A stretch of 64,000 bases of DNA from Verrucomicrobiia bacterium (GTDB lineage: Bacteria > Verrucomicrobiota > Verrucomicrobiia > Verrucomicrobiales > Akkermansiaceae). Numbering within the stretch: the stretch's first letter is position 1; every line of letters begins with the position of its first letter. The notes under the pieces were generated by a model, which saw only the letters and a list, made by a program, of their open reading frames with translations, did no database searches and had not been told where the DNA came from. The stretch is taken from NCBI GenBank assembly GCA_030431475.1, contig JAUIJD010000025.1:1-64000 (forward strand), in the 5' to 3' direction. Made by a program: the position numbers and the translations under genes. This document shows, one piece after another, positions 34,633 through 38,116 of this stretch.

Positions 34633-34742
34633 GGTAGGGGTTGGTTTGGTTTGCGTTCGAGGGGCCGCGCGGGTAATCCCGACTCGCGGCCGACGCCCCG
34701 ACGATGGCGCGGGCCTCACGCACTGCAAGGAACAATCCCCAC

Positions 34743-36215
34743 ATGCTTCTCTCCAACCTCGTTTTCACCGAAGGCCCGTGGCCCTGGGCGATCGGCGCGC
34801 TGGCCGGCCTTCTCATCGGATGGCTGATCACCTTTCTCATCGGATCGGCGAAGCGGGGTCGTCTCGAGGAGCGGCTCGGGGCGACCGCGCGCCAGGCGAC
34901 CGATCTCGAGGCGCGTCTCGCGCAGGCCCAGGCGGGGGCCGAGGAGGAGGAGCGGGAGGCCGAGACGCTGCGCACGCGGGTCGCCGAGTTGAAGACCCGC
35001 CTCGAACACGAAGGCAAGGCGGCGAGGGAGCGGCAGGAGCTGTTGGAGCAGACCGAGAAGCGCTTGTCGGATGTCTTCAAGGGGCTCTCGGCCGACGCCC
35101 TGAAGTCGTCGACCGAGCAGTTCTACCGGATGGCCAAGCAGACGCTGCAGGCGCAGCAGGACGAGGCCAGGGGTGAGCTGGAGAAGCGCCGCGTGGCGAT
35201 CGAGCAGATGGTCAAGCCGGTGAAGGAGACGCTCGGCAAGTTCGAAGGTCGCATCGGCGAGATCGAGAAGGCGCGCGAGGGCGCCTACGCCGAGCTCAAG
35301 ACGCAGGTGAAGGCGATGGCCGAGGCCCAGACCGGTCTGCAGCGCGAGACCGCGCAGTTGGTCAAGGCCCTGCGCCAGCCGACCGGTCGCGGGCAGTGGG
35401 GCGAGATCCAGCTCCGCCGGGTGGTCGAGATGGCCGGGATGCAGGAGCACTGCGATTTCCAGACGCAGACGAGCACGACCGACGACGAAGGGAAGCGGCT
35501 GCGGCCGGACCTGATCGTGCGGCTGCCCGGCGGCAAGACCATCGTGGTCGATTCGAAGACGCCGATGGACGCCTACCTCGACGCCGTGGAGGCAAGGGAC
35601 GACGTCGCCCGCGACGAAGCCCTGAACCGCCATGCGCGGCAGGTGCGCACCCACATCACGCAGCTTTCCTCGAAGAACTACACCTCGCAGTTCGAGCACG
35701 CGCCCGAATTCACGGTGCTGTTCCTGCCCAGCGAATCGTTCTTCTCCGCCGCGCTGCAGAGCGATCCGGGATTGATCGAGCGCGGGGTCGATCACGGCGT
35801 GATCCTGGCGACGCCGACGACCTTGATCGCGCTGCTGCGGGCGGTCGCCTACGGCTGGCGCCAGGAGGCGCTGGCCGAGAATGCGCGCGAGATCTCGGTG
35901 CTCGGACGCACGCTGCACGAGCGGTTGACGACGCTCGCCGGGCACTTCGCCAAGCTCGGACGGTCGCTCGATTCCGCGGTGGGTCACTACAACAAGGCGG
36001 TCGGGTCGTACGAGACGCGGGTGCTGAGCACCGCGCGCAAGTTCGAGGAACTGCAGGCGGCGCCGGAGGGGCAGTCGCTGGAAACGCCGCCGCAGATCGA
36101 GAAGGCCGCGCGCCTGCCGATGGCGGAGGAGGAACCGGACGCGCCGGAGGCCGACGAGGCCAAGGAGAAGGCAAGCTCCGCCGCGAGCGACCTGCGGTCG
36201 GCGCTCGGTGGGTAA
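34743..36215 (+). CDS. rmuC: DNA recombination protein RmuC
   Basis: A 490-residue RmuC. An N-terminal membrane helix ('[20 protein letters not shown]', residues ~11-31) is followed by a long Glu/Arg-rich coiled coil (~35-210) and the RmuC domain, whose core '[20 protein letters not shown]', '[20 protein letters not shown]', '[11 protein letters not shown]' is clearly present at ~220-290 with '[20 protein letters not shown]' at ~330-350. A nuclease-like fold in the family is inferred from the PD-(D/E)XK pattern '[18 protein letters not shown]'. RmuC limits recombination between inverted repeats. The ATG at 34743 places the membrane helix at the N-terminus. REP elements begin 14 bases after the stop. 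Confidence 0.93.
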
Positions 36216-36229
36216 AGGGGGCGGGCAAA

Positions 36230-36357
36230 GGGACGCGCGACGCTGTCGCGCATGGGCGAGTTCTGGCGGTGGGTGGCTGCCGGGGAATGTCGTGGCGGAG
36301 GATTTCGGCTGGGAGTGGGCTTGTTGGCAGGGCGGGCGCGACGGCGTCGCGCGTCCC
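36230..36357. repeat. REP pair, copy 1 (upstream of transposase)
   Basis: A ~128-bp element whose ends are the inverted motifs GGGACGCGCGACGC... and ...GCGTCGCGCGTCCC. Each end is itself a small hairpin (GCGCGAC-n-GTCGCGC), so the element is a REP plus inverted REP separated by a variable ~80-bp middle. Copy 1 has the most divergent middle of the four. Confidence 0.85.
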
Positions 36358-36372
36358 GGGGGGGCGCATGAA

Positions 36373-36498
36373 GGGGCGCGCGACGCTGTCGCGCTGGCCA
36401 GCTCTGACGGATGGTGGTTGCCGGTAGATGGCGCGGTGGAGGTTTTTGGGCAGGAGTGCGTTTACCGGCGGGGCGGGCGCGACGGCGTTGCGCGTCCC
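36373..36498. repeat. REP pair, copy 2
   Basis: A ~126-bp element with the same terminal hairpins. It is in direct orientation to copy 1, 15 bases after it. The middle contains TGGCCAGCTCTGACGGATGG and GGTTTTTGGGCAGGAGTGCG, nearly the same as in copies 3 and 4. One end differs by a G for A near the GGGACG terminus and by T in GGCGTTGCGCG. Confidence 0.85.
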
Positions 36499-36512
36499 GG
36501 GAGGAGCATGCA

Positions 36513-36637
36513 GGGACGCGCGACGCTGTCGCGCTGGCCAGTTCTGGCGGACGGTGGTTGCCGGCAGGTGGCGCGGTGGAGGTTATCGGCAGGAGTGGAG
36601 ATGCCGGCGGGGCGGGCGCGACGGCGTCGCGCGTCCC
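36513..36637. repeat. REP pair, copy 3
   Basis: A ~125-bp element with the same terminal hairpins, 14 bases after copy 2 and also in direct orientation. Its right end lies 60 bases before the transposase start. The middle reads TGGCCAGTTCTGGCGGACGG at the start and TTATCGGCAGGAGTGG later. Confidence 0.85.
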
Positions 36638-36697
36638 TTGCCTCGTTCGGCTCCTCGGCCTTGGAATCGACCGTTGAATGCGATTTTCTATAGAAGC

Positions 36698-37279
36698 ATG
36701 GACGAATCGCGTTCCAGTGGTTGGCGTCGCCGGGGTTATCTGCCCCACATCGACGCCGGCAATCGCCTTCAGGCGATCACCTATCGCTTGGCCGACTCGG
36801 TCCCGAAACGGGTGATCGACCGATGGAGAAGGGAATTGGCCGATGAGGACGAAGAGGTGCGCCATCGGGAACTCAGGGAGCGAATCGCCCGCTACGAGGA
36901 TGCAGGATACGGCGATTGCTGGCTCGGCGATCCCGAGAATGCCCGGATCGTGGCCGACAACCTCCGACATTTCGATGGGCAACGCTATCGTCTCGACGGG
37001 TGGTGTGTGATGCCGAATCACGTGCACGTCTTGATCTTCTGCTTTCAAGACCACCGGCTCGATCAGGTCGTGCGTTCGTGGAAGAACTACACGGCCAGAC
37101 GCATCAACCAGCGGGTGGGTCGCAGCGGGCGCCTTTGGGATCACGAATACTACGATCGGCTCATTCGGGATGAGCGGCATCTCGCCCGGGCGAGGCACTA
37201 CATTCGAATGAATCCGGTGAAGGCCGGACTTTGCCAGCAGCCGGAAGATTGGCGCTTTGGGAGTGCTTCTGAAGGCTGA
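36698..37279 (+). CDS. REP-associated tyrosine transposase (RAYT)
   Basis: A 193-residue transposase of the IS200/IS605-related Y1 family that acts on REP sequences. It has the HUH motif in 'VMPNHVHVLIFCF' (His-x-His) and the catalytic region 'LWDHEYYDRLIRDERHLARA' with 'RHYIRMNPVKAGL', both typical RAYT hallmarks, and 'RLDQVVRSWKNYTARRINQR' in between. Length is as expected. The start is placed at the ATG at 36698 because the open frame upstream runs through the REP copies. It is flanked by three REP pairs upstream and one downstream, which makes it an apparently complete REPtron. Confidence 0.93.
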   Translation: MDESRSSGWRRRGYLPHIDAGNRLQAITYRLADSVPKRVIDRWRRELADEDEEVRHRELRERIARYEDAGYGDCWLGDPENARIVADNLRHFDGQRYRLDGWCVMPNHVHVLIFCFQDHRLDQVVRSWKNYTARRINQRVGRSGRLWDHEYYDRLIRDERHLARARHYIRMNPVKAGLCQQPEDWRFGSASEG

Positions 37280-37294
37280 CCGGTGGCGGAGGAA

Positions 37295-37420
37295 GGGAGG
37301 CGCGACGCGGTCGCGCTGGCCAGCTCTGGCGGACGGTGGTCGCCGATAGATGGCGTGGCGGAGGTTTTTGGGCAGGAGTGCGCTTGCCGGCGGGGCGGGC
37401 GCGACGGCGTCGCGCGTCCC
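37295..37420. repeat. REP pair, copy 4 (downstream of transposase)
   Basis: A ~126-bp element in the same orientation as copies 1-3 and beginning 15 bases after the transposase stop. Its left end has a few changes (GGGAGGCGCGACGCGGTCGC), while the right end is the consensus GCGTCGCGCGTCCC. It sits 48 bases upstream of the NlpC/P60 gene. Confidence 0.85.
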
Positions 37421-37468: not shown

Positions 37469-38116
37469 GTGAGTCTTCTGCGTGCGATCCTATTGCTGCT
37501 GTGCCTCGGCGTCGCGGGGGCGGCGGCCTCCGAGTCGCGTCCCGCGCCCGGGTCGATCACGACGTCCGACCTCGAGGATTTCGAGAAGCTTGAACCCGCC
37601 CGACAGCGCCTGGTGAAGCTGGCCCTCGACGAGACCCGGCGGCTCAAGTTGTCGGAGTACGTCTTCGGCAGTGCCGACCCGAAGCGGGGCGGTTTCGACT
37701 GTTCGGGTTCGGTGTTCTACCTGCTGAAGAAGATCGGGATCGATCCGGCGCGCAGCTCGGCGGCCCAGTATGAGTGGGTGAAGAAGGCCGGCCACCTGCA
37801 CGAGATCCCGGCCGGGGTCTCATCGTTGGCTGCCCCGTGCTTCCAATCGCTGAAGCCCGGGGATCTCCTGTTCTGGTCGGGCACCTACACCCCGACGGAC
37901 GGGCGCAGGAACAAGATCACCCACGTGCAGATGTACCTCGGCGTGGAGAAGGACGGCGGCCACGTGATGGTCGGTTCGAGCGACGGGCGCAGCTACCGGG
38001 GGAAGGCCCGCTGCGGTTTCGGCGTGTTCGATTTCAAGCTGCCTCGAAAGGGCTCGAAGGCCCGCTTCGCGGGCTTCGGCACGCCACCGGGGCTGGACGC
38101 CCCGGAGCCGCCCTGA
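37469..38116 (+). CDS. NlpC/P60 family cell-wall hydrolase
   Basis: A 215-residue exported peptidoglycan hydrolase. The start is a GTG at 37469 preceded by AGAGGAAGG, a good ribosome binding site; it gives a signal peptide (MSLLRAILLLLCLGVAGAAA). The catalytic Cys is in 'KRGGFDCSGSVFYLLKKIGI', the His in 'KITHVQMYLGVEKDGGHVMV', the two catalytic residues expected of NlpC/P60 endopeptidases; 'LKPGDLLFWSGTY' is the connecting motif. The frame extends upstream through REP copy 4, but that part is not protein. No extra substrate-binding module is present. A weak hairpin (38116-38135) follows the stop. Confidence 0.87.
   Translation: MSLLRAILLLLCLGVAGAAASESRPAPGSITTSDLEDFEKLEPARQRLVKLALDETRRLKLSEYVFGSADPKRGGFDCSGSVFYLLKKIGIDPARSSAAQYEWVKKAGHLHEIPAGVSSLAAPCFQSLKPGDLLFWSGTYTPTDGRRNKITHVQMYLGVEKDGGHVMVGSSDGRSYRGKARCGFGVFDFKLPRKGSKARFAGFGTPPGLDAPEPP

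Follow-up and report, generated by a model that had tools for sequence, protein, structure and literature searches.

The window analysed here is the whole stretch of 64,000 nucleotides from a Verrucomicrobiia bacterium. The locus within it holds a RAYT (TnpAREP) gene located between rmuC and a gene for an NlpC/P60 protein. By repeat search the RAYT gene was found to be flanked by four inverted REP pairs, three upstream and one downstream, so that REPs lie on both sides of it, and this arrangement agrees with the earlier note on this DNA. The features are as follows:

34704..36215, + strand: rmuC, the left neighbour; same order in G017/E54 and G002
36230..36357: REP pair 1, with REP 36230-36251 (+) and inverted REP 36336-36357 (-); middle of 84 nt
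36373..36498: REP pair 2, with REP 36373-36394 (+, tag GGGGC) and inverted REP 36477-36498 (-, one stem mismatch); middle of 82 nt
36513..36637: REP pair 3, with REP 36513-36534 (+) and inverted REP 36616-36637 (-); middle of 81 nt
36698..37279, + strand: RAYT/TnpAREP gene, 193 aa; NCBIfam REP_Tyr_transpos, Pfam Y1_Tnp, PDB 4er8
37073..37075, + strand: codon of R126, in a helix predicted at 121-140 (low-confidence model); covaries with REP stem pair 5
37085..37096, + strand: codons 130-133 (N130 to A133); residues 130 and 133 covary with REP stem pair 6
37139..37141, + strand: codon of D148, after W147; aligned with Q95 of E. coli TnpAREP; covaries with guide base 4 (weakly in the strict set)
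37142..37147, + strand: codons of H149 and E150; covary with REP stem pair 3
37295..37420: REP pair 4, downstream, with REP 37295-37316 (+, tag GGGAG) and inverted REP 37399-37420 (-); middle of 82 nt
37469..38116, + strand: NlpC/P60 gene, the right neighbour; same order in G017/E54 and G002

The RAYT protein matched the NCBIfam model REP_Tyr_transpos (1.1e-28) with 100 bits, which is above the curated cut-off of 80, and Pfam Y1_Tnp with 2.4e-9. The sole match among PDB sequences at E up to 0.001 was TnpArep, 4er8 (3e-5). The HUH motif PNHVH at residues 106-110 and the residues Y168 and N172 (Y---N) were all aligned with 4er8, and the reading frame is open with HUH, Y and N intact. The Y1_Tnp match is common to IS200 transposases and hairpins are found on either side of the gene, as would also be expected of an IS200/IS605-type insertion sequence that moves as a unit with the hairpins as its ends. 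However, the IS200 model gave only 24 bits, below its cut-off of 55, against the 100 bits for REP_Tyr_transpos. The codon usage of RAYT was atypical, with a GC3 of 0.70 compared to 0.91 and 0.88 in the neighbouring genes, and its GC content was 0.60 compared to 0.66 for the window; GC and GC3 are low relative to the neighbours although the same locus is occupied in the congener G017. AlphaFold2 run on two sequences gave a mean pLDDT of 56, with residues 143-157 under 50, and because of the poor pLDDT the model was used solely for the helix at 121-140 and for no fold search.

Each REP consists of a GGGAC tag and a 7-bp hairpin with a 3-nt loop, GCGCGAC-GCN-GTCGCGC. The earlier note had given all pairs the same 22-base inverted ends. 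The ends are inverted in all four pairs but they are not all identical, as one of the eight carries a GGGGC tag, one a GGGAG tag and one a stem mismatch, and the third loop base is variable. Single-end folds, as single-stranded DNA, were computed for two of the eight. Both formed the 7-bp hairpin with the 3-nt loop (-8.6 kcal/mol), in accordance with the hairpins proposed earlier, and were only modestly better than shuffles (z -2.0 and -1.1, with 7/200 and 29/200 shuffles at least as good). The whole pairs, all four of which were folded, were far better than shuffles (z -4.4 to -6.7, 0/200 at least as good), with the two REPs of one pair annealing together.

The middles were correctly described as variable and of about 80 bp (81-84 nt). 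They were also said to be near-identical in copies 2-4, which is not what was found: the gapped identity was 0.90 between copies 2 and 4, 0.84 between 2 and 3, 0.83 between 3 and 4, and 0.70-0.74 relative to copy 1. The REP ends show more likeness than the middles. Pairs 1-3 are arranged in tandem, repeating about every 141 nt. No full-length match to the window middles was found among 21 other pairs of the genome, and besides the matches among window copies 2-4, the 21 pairs and the four window middles shared two 15-nt matches only. Since the middles differ by 10-17% within copies 2-4 and by 26-30% from copy 1, and have no full-length match in the other genome pairs, the window pairs are best read as local duplicates. 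Their likeness would fit local tandem duplication better than transposition, and the recent multiplication suggested previously is not upheld.

The genome of the bacterium comprises 4,728,419 bases (4.73 Mb) in 109 contigs. When it was searched at up to 3 mismatches, the 22-mer had 83 matches and a control with the same letters reversed had 0. Some of the 3-mismatch matches were the opposite strand of the same palindrome, and the set of 72 REP sites at up to 2 mismatches, spread over 29 contigs, was therefore used. Neighbours within 300 nt in this set formed 23 tag-outward pairs, 3 tag-inward pairs and 4 same-strand pairs. The tag-outward pairs take in 46 of the 72 sites and have a median gap of 91 nt. 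A symmetrical REP doublet is what defines a REPIN. The many scattered REPs that the earlier note had expected genome-wide are present, absence of other copies is excluded by the 72 sites, and the family models together with this population support its self-consistent pairing of RAYT and REPs (REPtron). Most REP pairs have no adjacent RAYT, which argues against an insertion sequence that carries its own ends. A simple gene caller based on codon usage and trained on the window, which is crude and left RAYT itself uncalled, placed 61 of the 67 REPs examined (in 40 stretches) outside called genes, compared to 439 of 2000 positions picked at random from these stretches. At positions 876-1053 of locus L091 (G000 C65:2600-4700) three same-strand REPs, the first with 3 mismatches, were seen with a 78-nt period, unlike the pairs.

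In 57 genomes, including that of the window, the REP had 70 matches at home, 6 in G017 and 1 in G001 at up to 1 mismatch, and 0 in the other 54. The sole match in G001 lies at locus L072 (C146), within a 2.1-kb stretch that is 93% identical to L112 (G000 C35:5100-7200), and the best RAYT of G001 is 55% identical to that of the window. The likeness of L072 and L112 possibly results from a mis-binned contig or from recent exchange.

We collected 70 copies of the REP. The search pattern included the loop and allowed up to 3 mismatches, so that GCN loops were favoured. Among the copies the loop was GCT in 35, GCC in 23, GCG in 11 and GTT in 1. The tag was GGGAC in 58 copies, GGGGC in 8 and one of four others once each, and the window REP family thus does not have the canonical GT[AG]G tetranucleotide at the foot of the hairpin, a point that the earlier note had not raised. 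Ten departures from the stem were observed, all one-sided and none compensatory. With one-sided changes only, the window REP family does not by itself support the hairpin through covariation.

A protein search of the same genome identified ten RAYT loci (11 rows, two of them pieces of one gene). The nearest paralogue, on contig C34, is 55% identical, and no near-identical second copy was found in the genome. It is flanked by REPs of the sequence GGAGC-GCCGATTATGAAATCGGC. At up to 3 mismatches this family comprises 82 sites, against 0 for the reversed control, with 27 outward, 0 inward and 2 same-strand neighbours, and at least 8 of its sites read GGAGCGCCGGTTATGAAACCGGC, a two-sided stem change. 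The genome-wide counts for the window and C34 families correspond to one RAYT per REP family, with the gene itself unmultiplied. As the nearest paralogue has a REP family of its own, specificity appears private to each enzyme. That the nearest protein in the genome is so distant and has different REPs is also difficult to reconcile with an IS200/IS605 element. In some relatives many RAYT candidates were seen: G049 gave 35 matches, and G531 gave 143 first-look candidates, 8 of which were scored.

The gene order rmuC, RAYT, nlpC and RhlE-like gene was common to the window, the congener G017 and Verrucomicrobiaceae bacterium E54 (L120). G017 and the E54 record are probably one genome. The RAYT of G017 is the orthologue at the same locus, with 74% identity, and most residues near HUH and Tyr are unchanged in it. 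In G002 the rmuC, nlpC and RhlE-like genes were found in this order without a RAYT between them. The other 14 nlpC-like loci, from 13 genomes (L124-L137), lacked all of these neighbours within about 1.5 kb, and the shared context is consequently limited to close relatives. At about 1380-1460 of the G002 locus (L123), the rmuC-nlpC gap contains a REP pair resembling the family of G002's own RAYT, GGACC-GCGTGGCTCCGACCACGC, and this pair differs from L044 by a two-sided stem change. Having an orthologue at the same place in the congener, the RAYT locus is in all likelihood old, which the earlier note had not recognised, and RAYT was probably inherited vertically here. The shared neighbours in the congener do not agree with a gene and its ends moving as a unit, and we regard an IS200/IS605-type element as very improbable.

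The gene could instead be an inactive relic whose REPs persist as terminators or as structure elements of mRNA or DNA and no longer move. The REPs are mostly intergenic, their stem changes are one-sided only, the middles are diverged with no recent spread apparent in the window, and the codon usage of RAYT is atypical, all of which would agree with a relic. It is less easily combined with an open frame in which HUH, Y and N are intact, with REP ends that are more alike than the middles, and with a gene kept at the orthologous locus with the surroundings of HUH and Tyr mostly identical. We consider an inactive relic unlikely and favour a RAYT that would still act on its REPs.

Near the guide-contact loop, the RAYTs of the window and G017 differ by D148N, E150D and Y152H. 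In G017, 56 sites of GGACC followed by the same hairpin were found at up to 3 mismatches, compared to none with the reversed control; 49 of the 56 have a GGANC tag. Orthologous REP sites were sought by comparing 26 stretches around G017 REPs with 40 around REPs of the window's genome; two were found in this comparison, which took REP-bearing stretches only and covered about half or fewer of the G017 sites. One is a pair, C18:71380 here and C224:855 in G017, in which the left tag is GGGAC here and GGACC there. The other is a single REP, C52:50383 here, with GGACC in both genomes, where the match spans the REP and about 1 kb on one side. That only two REP places are shared in the compared stretches would fit mobilisation of REP pairs. 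Since one orthologous REP here keeps GGACC, a guide change in the window lineage is the simplest reading. The tags suggest that the guide changed in this lineage from GGANC to GGGAC, probably in that direction, with the stem unchanged. RAYTs near that of the window often have GGANC tags before a GC-starting hairpin, found without an assumed sequence, while a second RAYT subclade has GGAG, GTAG or GTGG at the hairpin foot; the GGGAC of the window departs from both. At many of the 139 relative loci examined a repeated hairpin was not found. The window and its congener would make a natural before-and-after pair for a guide change.

For the analysis of covariation, each column of the RAYT alignment was compared with the fourth guide base and with stem pairs 3-6, and base evolution was simulated on the RAYT tree. 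The pattern of guide and residue was spotted by eye before the test, whereas the stem-pair signals came from a control run in which none were expected. The first sample comprised 139 loci, 8 without a gene by motif and 131 with a gene. From the order, 65 loci with a GG[AT]NC tag before a GC-starting hairpin entered the test, the GGGAC of the window being admitted by hand. As the selection rule allowed nothing but A or T at the third tag position, conservation there is no result. Loci L182, L184 and L188 (Q148; read as GGTCC by the rule) were dropped by hand, their commonest tag reading GTGGT; if kept, they would count against Q with G. Out of 40 more loci, from other orders or the same family, 4 were without a gene, L262 and L273 (same family) were dropped and 20 had the tag. 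The 65 loci from the order and the 20 from other orders make up the 85-locus set, which includes single-copy rows, some of them doubtful (L210, L247). A strict set consisted of 80 loci (66 + 14) with at least 2 REP copies each, and all six contact columns were masked from its tree.

In the 85 loci, residue 148 ranked highest among 162 columns for guide base 4 (z 7.2, 300 simulations), and its mutual information with this base was reached in 0/2000 simulations. The control run gave stem pair 3 with residues 149/150, pair 5 with 126 and pair 6 with 133/130. The highest z that any of the 162 columns reached for flanking bases and for loop length was 4.1-4.5, about equal to the 95% null maxima of 4.3-4.8, which were computed for guide and stem positions and not for flanks. 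At pair 3, C was found with R149 in 36/41 and with other residues in 0/44. At pair 5, Q126 was found with A in 30/31, R126 with G in 11/12, H126 with G in 18/21 and D126 with C in 2/2. It is familiar from protein-DNA recognition that G is paired with Arg or His, A with Gln or Asn, and C with Asp. For guide base 4, Q148 was found with G in 23/24, E148 with G in 4/4, A148 with C in 14/23 and M148 with A in 13/20.

The stem signals were retained in the strict set. Pair 3 had a z of 9.5 with residue 149 and 7.3 with 150 (0/500 null maxima over 167 columns), pair 5 had 8.6 with 126 (0/500), and pair 6 had 6.6 with 133 (0/500) and 5.6 with 130 (1/500). The signal between guide base 4 and residue 148 was reduced from a z of about 7 to 4.8 (17/500), and is no stronger than that between pair 4 and residue 155 (z 4.8, 19/500), for which no contact is proposed. 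The window fits the stem rules (R126 with G5, H149 with G3, N130 with A6), and so does the paralogue L032 (Q126 with A5, R149 with C3). The guide of L032 (A148 with G) falls outside the commonest rule of A with C, and D148 with GGGA in the window is a single case. Some M or K at 148 go with GTGGC in the other RAYT subclade (L037, L170, L193), so that the guide rule is not general. A sign test of the guide base against Q148, with 3 independent pairs only, was not significant. Residue 148 aligns with E. coli Q95, and residues 126-133 lie within the predicted helix 121-140, which is aligned near alpha 3. In the accessible parts of the literature, Q95 of E. coli TnpAREP is listed among the guide-contact residues (PMC6006769, PMC8266576) and the alpha 3 helix of TnpAREP is called DNA-binding (PMC8266576).

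A look-up table fixed beforehand, with K at residue 126 unscored, was applied to 40 held-out loci. Twenty-three of these were without the GG[AT]NC tag, and 14 of the 17 with it were counted (at least 2 copies and an aligned W147). The held-out loci were non-random: 12 had been missed by the first motif, 20 came from earlier lists and 8 were new from a further search, in which the other new loci were truncated or repeated ones used before. The genes L361 and L362 lie next to each other and their stretches overlap, and L216 shares 95% identity with a training row. The look-up was correct in 7/9 for pair 5, 11/14 for pair 3, 8/13 for the guide base and 9/12 for pair 6. Copying from the nearest relative was correct in 8, 13, 10 and 9 cases, and taking the commonest base in 3, 5, 6 and 9, in the same order. 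From these scores the look-up is informative for pairs 3 and 5, yet not beyond relatedness in a sample that is small and in part related. The rule for the guide is weak, and in the held-out set nothing is gained from pair 6.

The covariation could reflect shared ancestry, if RAYT clades keep both their residues and their REPs. Copying the nearest relative predicts the held-out REPs as well as the residue rule does, independent pairs are few, and whole-tree coevolution of RAYTs and REPs is already described in Stenotrophomonas in the accessible part of PMC2817692. However, the simulation on the masked tree reached the observed values for pairs 3 and 5 in none of its 500 runs (best of 167 columns), flanking bases and loop length stayed at about the level of the null maxima, and the top columns fall within two regions reported as REP contacts in E. 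coli (PMC8266576, accessible text). Shared ancestry is, in our judgement, a doubtful explanation. Covariation is evidence of correspondence and not of contact.

We lean towards the view that RAYTs read REP hairpins through a small residue-base code, in which residue 148 corresponds to guide base 4, 149 to pair 3, 126 to pair 5 and 130/133 to pair 6, and which is changing in the window lineage. In the proposed code, Q or E after the W would go with G at guide base 4, A mostly with C and M mostly with A. At residue 149, R would go with C on the 5' arm of pair 3 and other residues with G. At residue 126, Q would go with A, H or R with G and D with C at pair 5. The window lineage may show this code changing, as the stem is the same, the tag would have gone from GGANC to GGGAC, and residue 148 is N in G017 and D here. 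If the code is true, REP specificity would be readable and could be re-aimed by point mutations, and this would go some way to explaining how about ten RAYTs, with separate repeats, are kept in one genome. In the accessible text of PMC8266576, from 2021, the contacts of group 3 RAYTs with perfect-palindrome REPs were left to speculation, structures lacking. Should individual residues read individual bases, the identity of the contact residues could be tested by point mutants with existing cleavage assays.

Altogether, the locus is very probably a REPtron of a Verrucomicrobiaceae-like bacterium, with a vertically inherited, hairpin-reading RAYT, REPs of its own and a changed guide. The sequence itself shows the gene, the REPs, their genome-wide population, two separate REP families, the congener locus and the covariation, whereas binding, cleavage, mobility, vertical descent, the direction of the guide change and direct contact of the covarying residues are what we infer. 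As a single-strand HUH transposase, the RAYT most likely recognises its REP in the form of a hairpin folded from one strand. The loop after W147 (D148) would read the guide on the 5' side of the hairpin, and residues 149/150 and the helix residues 126/130/133 would read the stem. Y168 would cut, and REP pairs (REPINs) would be moved or copied to intergenic sites. By homology with the TnpAREP studied in the accessible part of PMC8266576, the loop G and the guide may help cleavage. The enzyme is one of about ten RAYTs in the genome, each apparently with a private specificity.

An extension of the cross-complementarity model (PMC8266576, accessible text) to the cleavage site predicts TC for GGGA, CT for GGAG and GT for GGAC. 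The flanking dinucleotides in 70, 36 and 36 REPs gave no support for this prediction, since AT, and in two families TC, was enriched just 3' of the hairpin whatever the guide. A tendency to AT or ATC 3' of the hairpin, independent of the guide, was seen in three REP families and could either belong to the REP or act as a signal for cleavage.

The comparisons with known systems are based on the accessible parts of the papers cited. In group 3 (subclass 2.5) TnpAREPs the REP is a short perfect palindrome, with D at the position of E100 and possibly R at that of H101 (PMC6006769). The window RAYT has D153 and R154, and its REP a 7-bp perfect stem, features that would place it in this group. REPtron Sm of S. 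maltophilia, also of group 3, likewise has a short perfect-palindrome REP (PMC8266576). Its stem is of 8 bp and its 3-nt loop is GCT, with the first G critical (PMC8266576), compared to 7 bp and a GCN loop in 69 of the 70 copies collected here with the loop-including search pattern. The tag of REPtron Sm is GTAG, while that of the window is GGGAC, with one base between GGGA and the hairpin and with D at the Q95 position. With the E. coli TnpAREP of REPtron Ec (group 2, 4er8) the window RAYT shares HUH, the catalytic Tyr, the following N and a W before the guide-contact residue. Q95, E100 and H101 of E. coli correspond to D148, D153 and R154, and the REP of REPtron Ec is long and bulged with GTAG (PMC8266576), in contrast to the short perfect hairpin of the window.

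Canonical REPs carry GT[AG]G (PMC6006769), 'most often GTAG' (PMC8266576). Atypical tags have been reported for classes 2.6 and 3 (PMC6006769) and for TIRtrons (PMC3733652), and since RAYT-like genes with repeats lacking GT[AG]G are already described, a tag other than GTAG is not new as such. As far as they are described there, these REPtrons and TIRtrons show secondary structure that is weaker or of another kind, a foot of CnGA in class 3, or long inverted repeats at the termini, whereas the window has a short perfect hairpin with GGGAC. The REPINs of Pseudomonas (PMC3116915) are symmetrical REP doublets dispersed between genes, as in the window, but here the middles differ between sites and the tag is different. 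The repeats of Opitutus terrae (Verrucomicrobiota, PMC3733652), from the phylum of the nearest named relative, are alike in REP abundance; their tag is GTAG, compared to GGGAC here and GGANC in many near relatives. Coevolution of RAYT and REP as whole molecules is known (PMC2817692, PMC8266576). In the literature searched, which was mostly open-access, lay outside the E. coli co-crystal paper and included the accessible text of PMC6006769, PMC3733652, PMC3686654 and PMC8266576, a residue-by-base correspondence was not found. The observation is an ordinary one for the field, a system of a known kind with a variant guide, and the residue-base correspondence is its new and testable part.
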